Assembly (NCBI GenBank): GCA_030680175.1
Contig: JAUXWO010000015.1
Location: 1-64,000 of the forward strand
DNA from: Vicinamibacterales bacterium
GTDB taxonomy: Bacteria > Acidobacteriota > Vicinamibacteria > Vicinamibacterales > UBA2999
Length of the DNA: 64,000 bases
Direction of reading: 5' to 3'
This document shows, piece after piece, positions 9,047 through 47,268 of the stretch. The translations under genes and the position numbers were made by a program. The first letter of the stretch is position 1. The number at the start of each line of letters is the position of its first letter. A model generated the notes under the pieces. That model had not been told where the DNA came from. It saw only the letters and a program-made list of their open reading frames with translations, and did not search any database.

Positions 9047-10156
9047 CTATGCGAAGCGCACGGCGTGGACGGGTGGCAGGTTGGCAGACACCGCCTGCCA
9101 CGAGTCCCCGCCGTCCTCGCTGATCCACAGCGACCCCGTCGTCGATCCGAACGCCAGCGTCGTGCCCGTCGCATCGACGTCGAGCGCGTGGCGGAACACC
9201 AGATCGTACGCGTGCTCCTGGGGCAGCCCGCGCGAGAGCGTCTCGAACGTGCGGCCCCCGTCGCGCGTACGCGTGACCACGACGCGACCGTCCACCGGAA
9301 TCCGCTTCTCGTCCTTGATTGCCGGGACGAACCACGCGGTCTCGGGGTCGTGCGGGTGCACGGCGACGGCGAAGCCGAACGTCGAGGGCTTCACATCGGC
9401 GATCTCCAGCCACGTCACGCCGCCATCCACGGACCGGAAGATGCCGTTGTGGTGCTGCACCCACAGCACGTCCGGATCTCTCGGGCACTGCACCAGCAGG
9501 TGCGGGTCCTGGACGTTCGGCTCGAACGCGCGCTCAGGGGGCATGAACTCGGCGCGCATGCCCGTGCCGGCCAGGTCCCATGTGGCGCCGCCGTCTCGCG
9601 TGCGCCAGGCGCCGCCGCACGAGATGCCGATGAGCACGTGCGCCGAATCGCGCGGGTCGACACAGATCGAATGGATGCCCGGATGGTCGGCGCCGCCGCC
9701 GAACCACTCCTCGCGCCGCGGGTCATCCCACAGCGGCCGGTTGATCGCCCACGAGTCGCCGTGGTCCGTCGACCGGAACAGCCCGCCCGGCATCGTCCCG
9801 CACCAGATCACACCGGGCTCGTCGGCGCCACCGGGCTGGATGGCCCAGACGAGCTTCAGCGCCCAGTCAGCCGGGGTTCCCTCGACCGGCGTCTTCGGCA
9901 CATAGCCTTCGGGCTTCTCCGGATAGACCGGCGCGGCGATCTCCTGCCACGTCGCGCCGCCGTCCGGCGAGCGGTGCATCTTCACGCCGAAGTGGCCGTG
10001 GTTCAAGGTGGCGAACAGGTGCCCCGAGCGCGGATCGGCGACGGCCAGCGTGCAGTTGTCGCCGAGGAAGCTCGCGCGTGCGATGCCCCAGCCCGCACCG
10101 GCGCGCTCGAGGGTGAACAGGCCCTTGCGCGTCGCGACATGGCAGACCTCAGTCAT
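9047..10156 (-). CDS. Beta-propeller protein with BNR/Asp-box repeats
   Basis: A 369-residue protein without an obvious signal peptide. Repeated Asp-box-like motifs are visible (SPDGGATWQEI, STDHGDSWAINR, TRDGGATWDLA, SVDGGVTWLEI, TRDGGRTFETL, SEDGGDSWQAV), pointing to a six-bladed propeller of the sialidase/BNR or photosystem-assembly-like type. The sialidase active-site arginines are not recognised, so an enzyme call would be unsafe. Its ATG overlaps the stop of the MoaD/ThiS-like gene by 4 bp, which implies that the two products work together. A role in binding or presenting the ubiquitin-like partner is speculation. Confidence 0.75.
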   Translation of the reverse strand: MTEVCHVATRKGLFTLERAGAGWGIARASFLGDNCTLAVADPRSGHLFATLNHGHFGVKMHRSPDGGATWQEIAAPVYPEKPEGYVPKTPVEGTPADWALKLVWAIQPGGADEPGVIWCGTMPGGLFRSTDHGDSWAINRPLWDDPRREEWFGGGADHPGIHSICVDPRDSAHVLIGISCGGAWRTRDGGATWDLAGTGMRAEFMPPERAFEPNVQDPHLLVQCPRDPDVLWVQHHNGIFRSVDGGVTWLEIADVKPSTFGFAVAVHPHDPETAWFVPAIKDEKRIPVDGRVVVTRTRDGGRTFETLSRGLPQEHAYDLVFRHALDVDATGTTLAFGSTTGSLWISEDGGDSWQAVSANLPPVHAVRFA

Positions 10157-12770: not shown

Positions 12771-13898
<1,128 letters not shown>

Positions 13899-13901
13899 GG
13901 C

Positions 13902-17335
<3,434 letters not shown>

Positions 17336-17339
<4 letters not shown>

Positions 17340-18988
17340 GACGGTCCTCCCCAGGAGCGGATGAAGGTAATGAGGGACTCGAGTTCAGAGGCCGACAGCG
17401 TCCGGTAGGTCGACGACGGGGTGCCGAAGGCCGGCATCGCCGTGCCGCGCCGCCCGCGGCGCACGGTCTCCACGAAGTAGGTGTCGGTGGCGAGCTCCTG
17501 GAGGACGGGGTTTCGCAGCGCGGGCGCGTCCGCGCCCTCCCCCGCCGCCCCATGGCACCCCGCGCACGAGCCGGCGTACAGCCGTTCGCCCTCTCGGACA
17601 TCGCCAGCCACCCAGCGAGGCGGACGCGTCTCGCTCGGCGCGGGCACACCGGCGAGCGCACGCAGATGCGCCACCAGCGGCGGCACATCCTCGGCGGTGA
17701 GCCCGGTGGTCCCGTCAGCCCAGGCCCGCATCCGGGTACCGGGGCGTCCTCGAAGAATGGTCTCCGCCACGAGGGTGTCGGAGGCGAGGCCAAGGAAGTC
17801 GGGGTTGGCCACCGAGGGGAAGGCGGCGAGCCCGGCGGCGCGGTGCCCCTGCCCCTCCGGCCCATGACACCCGGCGCAGAACGCGGCGTAGACCGAGGCC
17901 CCATCCGACGCGAACTCGCGCACGCCGAGTCGAGCCACGCGGATCTGATCGAGCGGCAGATAGGACCCTGGCACCTCGCGCCGCCGCAGCGACAGCGTGA
18001 AGAGCGTCAGCGCCTGCACGTCCTCGTCTGACAGTCCGAGCGCCGGCATCTGCGATCCCGCCACCACGGACGAGGGCGCGCGGACGTGTGCGCTGAACCA
18101 GTTCTCGAGGCTGCGGCGTCCGGGCACGGGCGTGAAGTCGAGTTGACCCGGGTCCCGCTCTCCGATCCGGGTGAGGTCCGGCCCCGTATCGCCACCGACG
18201 CCGCTGACCTTGTGGCAGCCAAGGCACCCGCTCGACAGGAACACGCTCTTCGCCGCGATGAGGCGGGGCGCCGCGACGCGCGTGTGCAGGAACGTCTCGA
18301 GGTGCGCGCGGTCGGGCGCCGAGATCGGGCCGAAGGCGGTTGCCCACGGACCCGATGTCTCGGTGGCCGCCTTCGCCACGTGCGCGTCGTACCACGACGG
18401 GTCGTAGCCGGCCAGGCCCACGCGCGACAGATCCGGGCCTTCCATGCCCCCACCGTCGGGCCGGACCGTGCCGCCGCGCCCGTCCACGCGGTGGCAGGCC
18501 GCGCAATCGAGGCGAGCGTAGGTCGCGGCGGCCAGGTCGAGCACGTCGCGCCGCGGGACGCCGGTGGCGGTGTGGCAGGTGCCGCAGCCGGCTTCGCTCA
18601 TCGACACGGGGAGCATCGGCTCGGGCCAGAACCGCACGTGTCCGTGCGCATCCGCCTTGTCCGTGGCCCGCCCCTGCCCGCCGTGACAGACCGTGCAGCC
18701 GAACTCCGCGGGGTCGTGCACCACTGGACGATGCAGCGCCATCTGCGGTCCGGTCACGCCCTGCTCGCCCGGTCCCATCGCCACGTGGCAGGACACGCAC
18801 CGATCGGCCGTCCCGAGTCCGGGGTTCACGATCTGCCGGAGCATCACGGGAATCGGCCCCTCGTCACCCACGGCCGTGGCCTGCACCTGCCGCCACTCAC
18901 GCAGGTAGTTCTCCTGCACGGCGGCGACGACGAGCAGCGCCAGCACCCCGAGGCTCGAGACGAGCAGCAGCCACTTGTTCTTCTGCAT
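17336..18988 (-). CDS. Membrane-anchored seven-heme cytochrome c
   Basis: A 550-residue protein with one N-terminal membrane anchor (residues 6-23) and seven CxxCH heme c sites at about residues 64, 98, 135, 162, 255, 371 and 475. The first three are close together and tetraheme-like. The last three lie in separate class I cytochrome domains, each followed by a downstream Met that could be the axial ligand (MPALG, TRMRAW, TAMPAFG). It would face the periplasm and connect the Rieske/cytochrome b complex to the molybdenum enzyme. Its ATGA overlap with the alpha gene and 12-bp gap after cytochrome b support one operon. Confidence 0.85.
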
Positions 18989-19000
18989 GGCTGTCGACTC

Positions 19001-20554
19001 TCAGTGGCCGCCCGGCCAGTCGGCCGGTGACCAGAAGAATTCCCAGTTCGGCCCGCGGAAGTACGTGCCGATCACCGTGAGGACGATGAAGCCGCAGAGG
19101 AAGCAGGTGAACAGCCCGAGCGCCCCGGCGCGCGTCGACCCGTAGCGCCGCACGAGCCACACGGAGTACCACGCGTAGATGAGGGTCAGCACCGTCCCGG
19201 GATTGATGGCGGTGACCACGAGCTGCGGGATGTCCGGGAACCACTCGCGCAGCCACCCGAAGCGGATGGCGATCGACTCGACGATCAGCGCCGCGCTGAA
19301 GCCGAAGGCGATCGAGCGCTGGACGAGCCGCCAGCCGCCCGGCCCCCCGAACCACACCCCCGTCCCCTCCTCTTCGCGATCGAGGTACGGAATGAGACCG
19401 AGCCCGATCAGCACGATCGCCGGGATCCCGATGCCCCCCATGAACGCGGAGAAGGCCACGAGTTCCTGCAGCCCGAGGAAGTACCACGGCGCCTTGGCCG
19501 GGTTCTCGGGCACCTGCGCATTCGCCAGCTCCTTGAGCGGTGCGTCGGAGACGAGCGCGAGCGCGGTGCAGACGAAAAGCGTCAGCATGAGCACGCCGAG
19601 TTCCGCGTAGAAGAGGTGCGGCATCGACGGCACGGTGTGCTCGGGACCCGATCCCACGGCCGGCGTGCGGCCGCGCACGATGGCGGCCAGGTGATACGTC
19701 TTCACCGGCTCCTCGGTGAAGACCGGGTAGACGTCGGCGGGAGGCGGCCCGAGGCGCTGGTTGACGTCGGCCGGCTTCGTCAGGCCGCCGTCCTTCCGGA
19801 TCCGCCAGAAGTGCACGGCCATCAGCATCGCGGCCACCAGGGGCAGCAACATCACGTGCAGCAGGTAGAAGCGGATGAGCGCCTCGTCGCCGACGGTGTC
19901 CGACCCGAGCAACAGCAGGCGCTGCAGCCCGCCCGGGTCGAAGTGCTCGGTGATGCCGAGCGCGTCGGTGACCTCGCGGGGCGACTGCGCGATGTTCGCG
20001 CCGATGGTGATCGCCCAGAACGCCAGCTGGTCCCACGGCAGCAGGTAGCCGGTGAACGAGAGGCCGAGGGTCGTCACGAGCAGCGCCAGGCCGATGAGCC
20101 AGTTGAACTCGCGCGGGGCGCGGTACGAGGCCGTGTAGAAGGCCCGTGCCATGTGCAGGATCACCGTGACCACCATCACGTTCGCGGCCCAGCGGTGGAT
20201 GTTCCGCATGAAGCGGCCCGTCGGCACGACGAAGTGGATGTCCTTGATCGAGTCGTACGCGACGTCCGGGTAGGGCTTGTAGTAGAACATCAGGAGCACG
20301 CCCGTCACGAGCGTGATCAGGAACGCCGCCACGCTCGCGATGCCGAGCCCCGCCGTCGTCATCCAGCGGAGACTCCAGCGGTGGGTGCGCACCGAGTGAA
20401 GGTGCAGGAAGACGTTCCCGAACACGAACGACGAGCGCCCGCGATCGGTGGACGGCGTGCCGGTCCGGAACGCGGAGTGCACCATGCGCCCGGGGGCGGC
20501 GCGCAGGTGGTCGCGGAAGACCTGCAGCGGCGTGCGGGGCAGGGACAGGCTCAT
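19001..20554 (-). CDS. Cytochrome b (bc/b6f-type), full-length fused form
   Basis: This 517-residue membrane protein has the four-helix heme core followed by a C-terminal half, like a fused cytochrome b6 plus subunit IV. Histidines for the two b hemes are visible in HRWAANVMVVTVILHMARAF and in the fourth helix (FYLLHVMLLPLVAAMLMAVHFW). The quinol-site region reads SFTGYLLPWDQLAFWA, and the C-terminal part contains AKAPWYFLGLQELV. It would oxidise or reduce quinol with the Rieske protein next to it. The start at 20554 overlaps the Rieske stop (ATGA); an in-frame upstream extension is the shadow of the Rieske gene. Confidence 0.9.
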   Translation of the reverse strand: MSLSLPRTPLQVFRDHLRAAPGRMVHSAFRTGTPSTDRGRSSFVFGNVFLHLHSVRTHRWSLRWMTTAGLGIASVAAFLITLVTGVLLMFYYKPYPDVAYDSIKDIHFVVPTGRFMRNIHRWAANVMVVTVILHMARAFYTASYRAPREFNWLIGLALLVTTLGLSFTGYLLPWDQLAFWAITIGANIAQSPREVTDALGITEHFDPGGLQRLLLLGSDTVGDEALIRFYLLHVMLLPLVAAMLMAVHFWRIRKDGGLTKPADVNQRLGPPPADVYPVFTEEPVKTYHLAAIVRGRTPAVGSGPEHTVPSMPHLFYAELGVLMLTLFVCTALALVSDAPLKELANAQVPENPAKAPWYFLGLQELVAFSAFMGGIGIPAIVLIGLGLIPYLDREEEGTGVWFGGPGGWRLVQRSIAFGFSAALIVESIAIRFGWLREWFPDIPQLVVTAINPGTVLTLIYAWYSVWLVRRYGSTRAGALGLFTCFLCGFIVLTVIGTYFRGPNWEFFWSPADWPGGH

Positions 20555-21036
20555 ACCGGTACCCTGGTGCCCGACGGCACCGTCACCCCTTCGTCCACCG
20601 TGACGAGCCCGCCGCTGGTCGAGACCTGGAGCCAGTCCAGCGCGCGTGGCGCGGGCCCCCTGGTCACCTCCCCGCTGGCGGTGAACCCCGAGCCATGGCA
20701 CGGGCACTCGAACCCCTGCGTCGTGGCGTGCACGATGCAGCCGAGGTGGGTGCAGATGGTGGAGATCGCGTAGACCCCCTCGGGATCACGGTAGATCGCC
20801 ACCGCGCGGCCCGGCGGCACGAACGGCTCCCCCGCCGCCAGCGTGTCGGGCAGCGCCACCCTGAACTTCTTCGAGGGCGAGGCGAGGACCGCGGCCTTCG
20901 GCAGCCGGAACATCCCCACCGTCGCGAAGAGCAGGGCCGTCGCCATCGACCACAGCGACAGCAGGCCCAGGACATCGCGCCGCGGCATCGGTTCGGGGTC
21001 GAGGCGCGACCTGGTCGCGCCGGGTTTCACCGTCAT
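20551..21036 (-). CDS. Rieske [2Fe-2S] protein
   Basis: A 161-residue Rieske protein with an N-terminal membrane anchor (residues 21-45). The cluster motifs CTHLGC (95-100) and CPCHGSGF (111-118) supply two Cys and two His ligands plus the disulfide cysteines. It is the partner of the adjacent cytochrome b. Both ends overlap their neighbours by 4 bp (ATGA). The PMPRRDVL stretch before the anchor is a Tat-like double arginine, as in other Rieske proteins that are exported folded. Confidence 0.92.
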   Translation of the reverse strand: MTVKPGATRSRLDPEPMPRRDVLGLLSLWSMATALLFATVGMFRLPKAAVLASPSKKFRVALPDTLAAGEPFVPPGRAVAIYRDPEGVYAISTICTHLGCIVHATTQGFECPCHGSGFTASGEVTRGPAPRALDWLQVSTSGGLVTVDEGVTVPSGTRVPV

Positions 21037-43745: not shown

Positions 43746-44309
43746 TCACTGCTGGCGGTCAACAGACGACGGGGCGTCGACGACAGGCAGCAGCGCGAAG
43801 CCTGACCACACGCGAGCAAAGATGGCCGCGTCGTACGACAGTCGCCCGGCGCGCGGGTCGGCCACGATCAGCCGATCGCCGTGGTGCGCTTCGACGACAA
43901 CGTAGTGGTTCCAGGAGAGGTGGGCGATCCAGGGAGGGGGCAGCGTCTCATGTCGCGCCGGTGCCACAGAGACGGGTCGCAATGCGAGTCCCTCGGAAGC
44001 CGCTCCGATGGACATCTCGGTCAATGAGAGGCCGCCTGGTGGCACAGACAGCTTCGTGAAGAACTGTTCCGTGTCCACGCCATGGCCCATACGCTCCAGG
44101 AGCATGATGAGCGCCGCGACGCCGCAGTCGTCGACCGTCCGCTGATGGACGACGCCCCGGCTGTCGAGCGCCTGGACAAGGGCCGGGTGTTCGACCCGAT
44201 ATGCCGTGGCCAGGAGCGCGCAGACAAGGGCCGCAGCCCCGGAGGCGCCTGCAACCCCACGCGCCGTGGGGCGCCACGGACCCACCTCCTCACCTGAAAC
44301 CGTCCTCAT
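43746..44309 (-). CDS. Membrane-anchored C39-family peptidase
   Basis: A 187-residue protein with one N-terminal transmembrane segment (about 18-40) and a C-terminal papain-like C39 domain. The oxyanion Gln and catalytic Cys are in HQRTVDDCGVAAL, the His in SWNHYVVVEAHHG and the Asp in LIVADPRAG, so the triad is complete. Unlike bacteriocin exporters of the PCAT type, there is no ABC transporter fused to it. Basic residues before the segment predict that the protease faces the periplasm. C39 enzymes cut after double glycine. It is the last gene of a five-gene operon whose first gene encodes a double-glycine precursor. Confidence 0.75.
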   Translation of the reverse strand: MRTVSGEEVGPWRPTARGVAGASGAAALVCALLATAYRVEHPALVQALDSRGVVHQRTVDDCGVAALIMLLERMGHGVDTEQFFTKLSVPPGGLSLTEMSIGAASEGLALRPVSVAPARHETLPPPWIAHLSWNHYVVVEAHHGDRLIVADPRAGRLSYDAAIFARVWSGFALLPVVDAPSSVDRQQ

Positions 44310-44968
44310 CGCACGAGCAGTTCAAACAGCGCTACGGTTCCCTGAATCACGACGACGGTGACGGAGGCTGTGATGGCCGCGGTCCGGAGCGGCAGACGCT
44401 GCAGCACCATCAAGCCCGCCGTCGCGATGGCCACCGACCAGACCTCGAACGGTCCGAAGTGCCGACCGACGAGCATGACCACGTCGGGCAGGTCGCCCGC
44501 CAGTGCGAGCACGGCATCGAATCCCGTGCGAACCTCGACGGCAGAGCCCGGAGCACCGGTCAACTCACGCGCCCAGAGGACAATGGCCACCAGAAGGCGC
44601 CGAAAGATCTCGACCCCCTGCGTGACCGCCGCGATCAGAAAGCACGTCCGCCATTCCGTCTCGAAGCCACCGAACACCGGAAACGTCCAGAGCAGTCCTG
44701 CCATGACGGTTGCACTCGCCAGCGCCCCGACTGGCGCGAACGCTCCGATGTTCAGCACGACGATGCGCCAGGCCAGGCCCTCCTCGACTGGCACGCCAGA
44801 CGTCTGAATGGTGGCCAACATAAACGGGATGAGCCATGCGGCGCTGGCCACCGTCGCAACCAGCAGGCCGACCACCACAACCAGCAGAGGCTGCGTCTTT
44901 GAGTACGGCCGAAGGGCCTCACGCGGCCACAGTGGGCCGGACAGCGGGAGCAGCAGGGCGTCGAGCAT
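44306..44968 (-). CDS. Yip1-like multi-spanning membrane protein
   Basis: A 220-residue protein with about five hydrophobic segments and the PLSGPLWPREALRPYSKTQPLLVVVVG start seen in bacterial Yip1-domain proteins. No catalytic motif is visible. It overlaps the C39 peptidase gene by 4 bp (ATGA) and follows the ABC permease gene by 15 bp. In such a cluster it could serve as an immunity or export partner, which is speculation from context. Confidence 0.6.
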   Translation of the reverse strand: MLDALLLPLSGPLWPREALRPYSKTQPLLVVVVGLLVATVASAAWLIPFMLATIQTSGVPVEEGLAWRIVVLNIGAFAPVGALASATVMAGLLWTFPVFGGFETEWRTCFLIAAVTQGVEIFRRLLVAIVLWARELTGAPGSAVEVRTGFDAVLALAGDLPDVVMLVGRHFGPFEVWSVAIATAGLMVLQRLPLRTAAITASVTVVVIQGTVALFELLVR

Positions 44969-44983
44969 CGGCCACCTCGATTC

Positions 44984-45679
44984 CTAGTTGCGCCGGGCGA
45001 CCAGCGCCTCGTCCGTCAGCATCGCGAGAGCCACGCGAAGGGTGACGAACAAGAGGAGGGTCGTCCCCATCACGAGCAACACAAGCAGCGCGGGTCTGAG
45101 CAGGAGCAGTCCGAACCAGAGCCCGATGACCACGGCCATCATGGGTCCAGACACCAGCAGCGCCATGCTCGAGGCTGTCTGTGGATCGGTCGTTCGCCCC
45201 GATGCCACCATCACGACGGCCGTGAGTAGACATCCCAGCAGCAGGACGAGCAGCAGCAATCCGGATGCGACCGGCCATGACCACAGCGCGGCGCTCTGCC
45301 CCGGGAGCAGCCACAACGCCAGCAGGAGTGCCAGGGCCACGGCGGCCGTCTCGACGAGGGCGATGCCGTAGATCGCCAGCGCCTTGCCGGTCAGCAGGTC
45401 AACCTTCGAGATCGGCAACAGCAGCAGCGCCTCCAACGTGCCACGGCTGCGCTCGTGTACGAGTACGTGTGCCCCTACGGAGACCGGGGTCCCGCACACC
45501 GCGATCAGCAGCAGCCCGCCGGCCAGACCTGCGGCGTCCTCGCCCGCGGTCTGGATGATGCGGTTCAGCGTGAGCGTCAGCAACGTGAACAACGCCATCG
45601 CATGGGTCACGAGCAGCACGCGATTCCTGAGGATGCTCTGCCATTGGAGCCGTGCGACCCGGAGCAGATGCTCGCTCAA
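44984..45679 (-). CDS. ABC-2 type transporter permease
   Basis: A 231-residue protein with six hydrophobic segments in the ABC-2/NatB layout: a first helix LLVTHAMALFTLLTLTLN, the cytoplasmic HERSRGTLEALLLLPISKVDLLTGK loop typical for coupling to the ATPase, then paired helices. It begins at TTG inside the ATPase stop (TTGA overlap), which implies coupled translation. With the ATPase it probably exports a peptide or lipid or protects the cell from its own peptide (compare BcrAB/LanFE-type immunity exporters). Confidence 0.75.
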   Translation of the reverse strand: MSEHLLRVARLQWQSILRNRVLLVTHAMALFTLLTLTLNRIIQTAGEDAAGLAGGLLLIAVCGTPVSVGAHVLVHERSRGTLEALLLLPISKVDLLTGKALAIYGIALVETAAVALALLLALWLLPGQSAALWSWPVASGLLLLVLLLGCLLTAVVMVASGRTTDPQTASSMALLVSGPMMAVVIGLWFGLLLLRPALLVLLVMGTTLLLFVTLRVALAMLTDEALVARRN

Positions 45680-46425
45680 TGCACTCTCGCCTCCTCTCCA
45701 CCGGCTCCTCGCCTCAGCCGGGCGTAGACCGCATCCAGATCTGAGGCGCCGGACAGCCCGACCTCACGCGCCATGTGCTCGAACCCCTCGTACTCTCGGG
45801 TCGCCCCCTCGGCCAGGACGAGCAGCCTGTCGCTCAGGCCCGCGAGATCCGACAGCGTATGGCTGCTGATCAGGATGGCTGCGCCCCGCCTTGTGCGCTC
45901 CCGCAGCACCTGCTTGATGTCGTGTCGTGCCAAGGGGTCCAGGCTCTCGAAGGGCTCGTCCAGGAGAATCACCTGCGCCCATGGGTGGGTCGCACGGGCT
46001 ACCGCAAGGCGCTGCCTGTAGCCCGTGGAAAGCGTCGACACTTGCGCCTCCTTCACACTCCAGAGGCCGCAGGTCGTGATGGCCATCTCGACAGCGGCCT
46101 CACGTTCCATGACGCCGCCTCCGTAGAACGACAGGAAGAACCGCAGGTTCTCGAGGACGGTCAGTTCATCGTAGTGACCGGCGCGCTCGATCAGCGCTCC
46201 GAGATGCGCACGTGCCACAACGGCCTCCGCGTGTTCCATGACGGTCACACGACCGGATGAAGGGTTGAGCAGCTTCGCAGCAAGGCGCAGGAGCGTGGTC
46301 TTGCCGGCTCCGTTATCTCCAATGAGTCCGACGACCTCGCCAGCCGACAGACGGAAGCTGACATCGCGCACGACCATCTCGCCATCGAACGCTTTGGAGA
46401 CCGATTCGAACAGCAGCCGTGACAT
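45676..46425 (-). CDS. ABC transporter ATP-binding protein
   Basis: A 249-residue ATPase: Walker A GDNGAGKTT (about 37-45), signature LSTGYRQRLAVARA, Walker B VILLDEPFESLDP, and an H-loop in ISSHTL. The signature starts with LSTG, as in NatA/CcmA-like exporters. Start 46425 has a GAGGAG site. It is followed at once by the permease gene and preceded by 142 bp after the small precursor gene. Confidence 0.88.
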   Translation of the reverse strand: MSRLLFESVSKAFDGEMVVRDVSFRLSAGEVVGLIGDNGAGKTTLLRLAAKLLNPSSGRVTVMEHAEAVVARAHLGALIERAGHYDELTVLENLRFFLSFYGGGVMEREAAVEMAITTCGLWSVKEAQVSTLSTGYRQRLAVARATHPWAQVILLDEPFESLDPLARHDIKQVLRERTRRGAAILISSHTLSDLAGLSDRLLVLAEGATREYEGFEHMAREVGLSGASDLDAVYARLRRGAGGEEARVH

Positions 46426-46567
46426 GGTTTCTCCTCGCTGGAGTGCCACCGCTCGACGGGGACGGACGGTGCCCGTTGGACAACGGGTGAACGTGCCCTC
46501 TGGCACGGCACCATCGCGGCGCCGGGCATCGTCCGCCCCGCGTTCGGTCGCAGGCCTCAGGCCAGCG

Positions 46568-46858
46568 CTACATGTTCTGGTAGATCAGGCGCCCGAGACC
46601 CCAGAGCGCGCACGCCGCCAGACCGACCGTACTCGCAGGAAAGACGAGCGCACCGACGGCTGAGATCGCGCAGCCCGCATCGATAGCCACCCCCCAGTTC
46701 ACGCCGCCACGCACCGTCTCGAAGTCACACAGCGGGGCCTGCGCAACCGCAAGCAAGGACTGGGCCTCCACCGGGCCCGCGAGGTTCACGAGGGCCAGCA
46801 GCACGAGCACCGCCAACCCGAGCGCCGGTGAAACCGACCACTTCGCCACTTCACTCAT
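46568..46858 (-). CDS. Small secreted double-glycine precursor peptide (bacteriocin-like)
   Basis: A 96-residue product. Residues 1-32 look like a Sec signal peptide (hydrophobic core LGLAVLVLLALVNLAG, cleavage near VEA-QS). Next comes a 20-residue propeptide ending CDFETVRGG. It fits the double-glycine leader rule: Val at -4, Phe at -7, Asp at -8. The remaining 44 residues (starting VNWGVAIDAGC) are glycine-rich and hydrophobic with two cysteines (core residues 11 and 31), like class II bacteriocins. The GGAGGAGGT ribosome site is the strongest in the area, fitting a highly made peptide. An alternative is a small two-helix membrane protein. No name is assigned. Confidence 0.6.
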   Translation of the reverse strand: MSEVAKWSVSPALGLAVLVLLALVNLAGPVEAQSLLAVAQAPLCDFETVRGGVNWGVAIDAGCAISAVGALVFPASTVGLAACALWGLGRLIYQNM

Positions 46859-47268
46859 CACGCACCTCCTCCGCCGCAGGTCTTCACGCGGCGTTCGAGG
46901 TGCGAGGGGCAAGGTCGGGGCCACATGCCCCGTGCGCCCGTATGTTCATCACGCACATGGACTTCATCGATTCGGCGTCCTGCCCATGATGGTTCGCTTG
47001 CGAGCGGGACGCTCACTCCGGTTTGCGAGCGGGCGCACGTCTGCGTTCCACTCGCGGATTCCCGACGACAACCGAAGTCCGGGTACAGCAACGACAGTTG
47101 CCCCTTGGATTGGTGTGCCGACGTGGTTGGCTCACGGGTAGCGCTCCGTGAGAATTCGCACCCTGCGCCACAATCCGAAGCGGGCACGAACTACCCTCTA
47201 CCCGTGTCGTCACGGTCAGCGTGCCGTCGCCCCTCCGCGCGCGCCTGACTCCGCGATAAGATCGTTCG
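46859..47268. other. Divergent region between the precursor operon and the spermidine-synthase-like gene
   Basis: About 410 bp, visibly less GC-rich than the flanking plus-strand genes. The right end holds the leaderless promoter at 47257. The promoter of the minus-strand operon must lie in the left part but was not identified. No gene is supported; a 69-codon open frame at 46932 has no ribosome site or recognisable sequence. Confidence 0.4.
47257..47262 (+). promoter_or_regulatory. -10 box of the spermidine-synthase-like gene, leaderless spacing
   Basis: TAAGAT lies exactly 6 nt before the GTG start at 47269. There is no ribosome binding site. Confidence 0.5.

Follow-up and report, generated by a model that had tools for sequence, protein, structure and literature searches.

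The window is a stretch of 64,000 nucleotides from a Vicinamibacterales bacterium (contig JAUXWO010000015.1). A five-gene operon on its minus strand (43746-46858) is probably a self-contained cluster for a membrane-active peptide. This peptide would be exported by Sec, cut by a C39 peptidase and most likely of the bacteriocin type, with ABC-2 and Yip1 proteins as protection or extrusion. The operon seems to be a member of a so far unnamed cluster family in Acidobacteriota, Gemmatimonadota, and Bacteroidota. Small bacteriocin-like peptides with disulfide bonds appear to leave the cytoplasm via Sec in these clusters, and a membrane-anchored C39 protease would then trim them on the outer face of the inner membrane, not within the cell.

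Organization of the operon

The operon encodes, in this order, a precursor peptide, an ABC-2 ATPase, a permease, a Yip1-like protein, and an anchored C39 peptidase. The precursor gene (96 aa) was placed by ORF calling at 46568..46858, on the minus strand like all the features that follow. Its ribosome binding site, GGAGGAGG (46865..46872), carries GGAGG 6 nt ahead of the ATG. After a spacing of 142 bp comes the ABC-2 type ATPase of 249 aa (45676..46425), which matches Pfam ABC_tran at 2.4e-26 and an HMM of the clusters, made without the window, at 3.6e-47. The ABC-2 permease (231 aa, TTG start, 44984..45679; Pfam ABC2_membrane_3, 6.5e-9) overlaps the ATPase gene by 4 bp. It is separated by 15 bp from the gene of the Yip1/YknW-like membrane protein (220 aa, 44306..44968). 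This last protein is sub-threshold in Pfam alone (Yip1 0.003, YknW_fam 0.007); an HMM of Yip1 proteins from neighbouring clusters, with the window excluded, recovers it at 5.3e-11. Finally, the C39 peptidase gene (187 aa, 43746..44309) overlaps the Yip1 gene by 4 bp. These coordinates bear out the first-pass annotation, which had read five genes on one strand with 4-bp overlaps or short gaps.

The gap between the precursor and ABC genes holds an intergenic RNA hairpin (46430..46567), detected by its folding energy. It reaches -81.3 kcal/mol over 46430-46575, with a z of -3.65 against shuffled sequence. Strong hairpins are common where a small peptide gene needs expression above the rest of its operon. 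This hairpin may set the ratio of the precursor to the operon. A sigma-70 promoter scan found no promoter, and a PHROGs search gave no informative family.

Two other regions of the window were noted by eye. Positions 435-1105 carry a small antitoxin-like and PIN-like ORF pair, possibly a VapBC toxin-antitoxin module. The operon at 12771-20707 resembles alternative complex III (an ActB-type iron-sulfur/molybdopterin protein and partners).

The precursor peptide

The precursor has three parts. Residues 1-32 (46763-46858) form the signal, assigned by heuristics only, with an n-region, a hydrophobic core and a V-E-A signal peptidase I site, as in Sec substrates. Residues 33-52 (46703-46762) form a propeptide ending in FETVRGG. 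The core, VNWGVAIDAGCAISAVGALVFPASTVGLAACALWGLGRLIYQNM, spans residues 53-96 (46571-46702). The sequence thus confirms the 96-residue product first described, with its Sec-like signal, FETVRGG propeptide and 44-residue core with two cysteines. We defined a double-glycine leader by hydrophobic residues at -7 and -4, Gly at -2, and Gly, Ala, Ser or Thr at -1. The window precursor shows F-7, V-4, G-2, and G-1, plus D-8.

Neither Pfam nor NCBIfam holds a family that matches the precursor. Searching acidobacterial genomes for the 96-aa product, as had been proposed, gave a divided answer. The precursor alone returned matches at chance level in 297 genomes of the phylum; the neighbourhoods of C39 genes did lead to relatives. 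A precursor HMM drawn from other genomes, with the window excluded, placed the window precursor first among 917 window ORFs, with GG|VNW in register. This match is weak (E 0.11), and the HMM held a few badly trimmed N-termini and one looser member, so that its ranking is usable and its E-value is not. The best single match, also weak (E 0.0013), is a precursor of a Bacteroidota cluster (L228). Both share the ending CALWG, and in that cluster Yip1 overlaps C39, as in the window. Similarity of sequence thus joins the window precursor weakly to those of the family.

The AF2 model of the precursor has modest confidence (pLDDT 66.5). Its core is a helix-turn-helix. C63 and C83 flank the F73-P74 turn, each at about 10 residues. 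Among 20 cores with two cysteines, which were hand-picked and do not form a blind test, the prolines tend to fall halfway from one cysteine to the other (mean offset 0.13 vs 0.25 if uniform). This position of the proline suggests a hairpin core closed by a disulfide.

An unfused and anchored C39 peptidase

The peptidase belongs to family C39 by its Pfam Peptidase_C39 score (8e-23, above the cut-off), its Gln/Cys/His/Asp residues and its structural match. It consists of a transmembrane segment at about residues 18-40 and a catalytic domain at about 45-178. Residues Q56, C62, H135, and D151 are invariant in 10/10 aligned members, as expected from the intact Gln/Cys/His/Asp first noticed. The AF2 model has a pLDDT of 85, mostly over 90 in the domain. 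Its best PDB match is 6mpz, in which a double-glycine protease binds its leader peptide. An HMM of nine relatives, with the window excluded, recovers the window C39 at 6e-30.

It is not a PCAT exporter, in which C39 forms one chain with the transmembrane and ATPase domains of an ABC transporter. The protein has 187 aa, has no Walker A, and its branch lies apart. More precisely, a maximum likelihood tree built from 111 C39 domains separates 45 unfused C39s, that of the window among them, from the ABC-fused ones by a branch with support 99/98; the root is midpoint only, and the window C39 is a long branch whose exact place is unsure. The 44 unfused relatives come from Acidobacteriota, Gemmatimonadota, and Bacteroidota and are mostly anchored by a transmembrane segment. 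Another four C39s carry the label unfused yet group with ABC-fused C39s; three of these four are truncated by contig ends.

In 37/41 members, the stretch ahead of the anchor carries more positive charge than the one behind it. This bias on the N side predicts a periplasmic catalytic domain. The orientation had been proposed from the window alone, where the bias is weak (KR 2 vs 1); the group as a whole speaks for it as N-in/C-out.

A periplasmic C39 of the FapD/FilB kind could also serve a Fap-like system that makes amyloid or pilus fibres. The window C39 does match the FapD (3e-4) and FilB (2e-8) models, weakly and far below their cut-offs. However, the family search gave no match of the FapD model in the genome, the core has no N/Q-rich repeats and the operon has no outer-membrane pore gene. 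Moreover, canonical C39 sites are absent from Fap proteins (PMC5557850). We consider this fibre reading scarcely credible. The FapD identity was rejected at 20 bits against the NCBIfam NF058616 cut-off of 330 bits, with no match in the genome. The Fap fibre system was likewise rejected, as the core repeats and the pore gene are missing here. Two unfused C39s (L071, 9279-9971; L072, 9658-10365) have signal-like N-termini, look FilB/FapD-like and stand without Sec/double-glycine precursors. They would represent a different use of exported C39.

A recurrent family of clusters

We found the relatives through a C39 search of 297 phylum genomes, extended by a scan of 84,980 species genomes and phylum samples. 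A single-sequence Yip1 search gave no match in the 297 genomes. The unfused C39s lie in a recurrent neighbourhood. Its small proteins are built from a Sec-like signal, a double-glycine leader and a short, hydrophobic core that contains cysteines. The accompanying genes encode an ABC-2 ATPase, a large permease, Yip1 and an anchored thioredoxin of TlpA-like type. The pattern is also present in Gemmatimonadota and in Bacteroidota, including an Ignavibacteriales genome. In 237 genomes of another phylum (that of G430), only fused C39s were found at E 1e-30. Yip1 and the ABC-2 ATPase lie within 7 kb in most clusters. The thioredoxin adjoins C39 in most Acidobacteriota clusters, and MauE is present in one Bacteroidota cluster. 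At 12771-13834 of L228, MauE-like and thioredoxin-like genes stand beside three precursors, which suggests a dedicated periplasmic redox chemistry.

The window cluster has an anchored C39 of the unfused group, Yip1, ABC-2 proteins and a Sec and double-glycine precursor on the same strand, as in the family. It is atypical in its upstream precursor, its short permease, its long-branch C39 and the absence of a thioredoxin gene.

We counted small ORFs with a Sec-like signal and a C39 leader by one fixed rule set, within 3 kb downstream of C39. They occur at 34/48 unfused loci, vs 1/48 on the opposite strand and 2/42 at ABC-fused loci; the 48 loci include close relatives and are not 48 independent events. 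The other 14 show no downstream precursor by this heuristic. The window, with its upstream precursor, is among them, and some are FilB-like. Some of these 14 may use other substrates. Together with the anchored C39 group, the bias of the anchors and the thioredoxin and Yip1/ABC-2 partners, these counts give comparative support to the two-step pathway of the first-pass annotation (Sec export, then an extracytoplasmic Gly-Gly cut).

The set of 55 non-redundant precursors, a few of which are likely false positives of the heuristic, has L at -12 in 22 and D or E at -10 in 26. Both positions were free of the search pattern, so this class II leader pattern counts as support. The number of cysteines in the core is even in 51/55, and the median core has 43 aa. 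In seven pairs of related precursors, conservation is higher in the prepropeptide than in the core: 88-100% vs 38-65% identity in six pairs, and 61% vs 49% in the most distant one. One Gemmatimonadota locus carries several tandem copies whose leaders are almost identical. In the cluster L231 (G1128 contig 1, 123000-142000, C39 at 9183-9848), five tandem precursor-like genes lie downstream of the anchored C39. Three have a near-identical signal and leader, and their cores differ.

The small protein could instead escape C39 processing and stay in the membrane as a stable subunit of the ABC-2 transporter. It is hydrophobic, with two predicted helices in the core, and its gene adjoins the ABC genes. 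However, other clusters have 2-5 different copies per transporter. The prepropeptide is conserved more strongly than the core, the C39-type leader positions are kept, and the precursors associate with unfused C39, not with ABC-fused C39. Such a subunit is very improbable, and we rejected it on these grounds.

The same pathway might also yield a signalling or envelope peptide rather than an antibacterial one, with Yip1/ABC-2 exporting or recycling it. Related C39 proteins help to export pheromones (ComA) or serve amyloid fibre systems (FapD, PMC5557850). Nevertheless, the cores across the family are hydrophobic, Gly/Ala-rich, Cys-paired, variable, and often in tandem, as in bacteriocins. The Yip1/ABC partners match those of bacteriocin clusters (PMC11580447), and no two-component or receptor gene was recognised within the window operon. 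We regard a signalling or envelope role as rather unlikely.

Distribution and transfer

The operon has a GC3 of 0.81, compared with 0.91 (sd 0.03) in the 30 other genes of the window (p 2e-5). Across 162 genomes of the window's order, an unfused C39 of the anchored type is found only in the window genome (E 1e-12). The other C39 matches in this order lie in open frames of 455 residues or more. The low GC3 and the sole occurrence among 162 genomes fit a horizontal acquisition. So, the less G/C-biased codon use reported at first holds, and the hint of transfer drawn from it is strengthened.

In the relatives, the synteny of the flanking SpeE-like gene revealed no empty site, and only this gene was common; one relative keeps PilT-region genes besides it. 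Searches of plasmids and phages yielded no C39 match that was more than partial and distant, and most of the matches belong to ABC exporters. A tyrosine-recombinase-like ORF lies about 1-2 kb upstream of C39 in three loci (L054, L055, L058). Such an ORF adjoins several Thermoanaerobaculia/Holophagales clusters and may aid spread.

Proposed pathway and significance

The precursor would be exported by Sec, and signal peptidase I would remove its signal. A single N-terminal anchor would tether the C39, whose catalytic domain would lie in the periplasm. Behind the signal, the leader ending in FETVRGG would be recognised by the anchored C39 and cut after Gly-Gly, as the family-wide leader conservation and the co-occurrence point to. 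A disulfide between C63 and C83 would probably close the freed core of 44 residues into a helical hairpin. The ABC-2 ATPase/permease and Yip1 would most likely clear the peptide from the inner membrane of the producer, or help its extrusion. We infer both the bacteriocin role and the immunity role. For the latter or for extrusion, the analogues are the Yip1/ABC genes near leaderless and circular bacteriocins and the action of YknWXYZ against SDP.

The usual teaching places double-glycine processing in the cytoplasm and couples it to an ABC exporter fused to the protease. The first description of this operon likewise took C39s as normally fused and cytoplasmic. This stands with a caveat, since a periplasmic C39 has a precedent in FapD (PMC5557850). 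The literature searched (mostly open-access) and the family libraries contain no description of Sec-exported double-glycine peptides with anchored C39 and Yip1, which is weak evidence of novelty. We lean slightly towards a separate, unrecognised maturation route in at least three diderm phyla. Here, anchored, periplasm-facing unfused C39s would act on peptides that are exported by Sec and oxidised in the periplasm, and little-cultured bacteria would hold a large reservoir of disulfide-closed helical-hairpin antibacterials. An anchored C39 group with Sec-exported leader peptides would show that Gly-Gly processing is separable from transport. For a periplasmic C39, the clusters would supply candidate substrates with clear leaders. 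They would also give a simple rule for genome mining (unfused anchored C39 plus Yip1), which would point to many antimicrobial peptide candidates across Acidobacteriota, Gemmatimonadota, and Bacteroidota.

Comparison with known systems

Class II bacteriocin systems built around a peptidase-containing ABC exporter (PCAT, ComA, NHLP exporters) share with the present clusters the C39 fold and catalytic residues, the small variable cores and the leader pattern L-12, L-7, V-4, G-2, and G/A/S/T-1. However, the present C39 is unfused and anchored, with its domain predicted outside. Its precursors bear a Sec signal before the leader, and separate ABC-2/Yip1 genes replace the fused exporter.

In the fap amyloid system of Pseudomonas, the C39 protease FapD works in the periplasm, and its target was left unclear by that study (PMC5557850). 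The likeness consists of an unfused C39 active in the periplasm and of Sec-exported proteins in the same operon (PMC5557850). The present C39 differs in its score, well below the FapD cut-off, in the lack of fibre repeats or a FapF pore, and in a likely substrate with a canonical leader.

SDP is a Sec-exported toxin peptide of 42 aa with two cysteines, like the core of the present precursor. Its maturation depends on SdpAB instead of a C39 enzyme, the predicted protease for this precursor. In Bacillus subtilis, YknWXYZ protects against the SDP (SdpC) toxin, so that a Yip1-type YknW and an ABC transporter act as protection (PMC8144471). YknXYZ is MacAB-like, whereas the present transporter is ABC-2.

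The clusters of leaderless and circular bacteriocins are not known to have a C39 or a Sec signal. Unlike the present precursor, their peptides have no leader or are cyclised. Yip1 proteins accompany these bacteriocins, with Yip1 and ABC genes beside a small hydrophobic peptide, as here (PMC11580447).

Finally, in archaeal islands a C39 peptidase occurs with several double-glycine leader proteins per locus (PMC6393860). As described, the islands resemble the present cluster in joining C39 and double-glycine proteins in one locus. They differ in their archaeal host; the present cluster is bacterial, with a Sec signal, an anchored C39 and Yip1.
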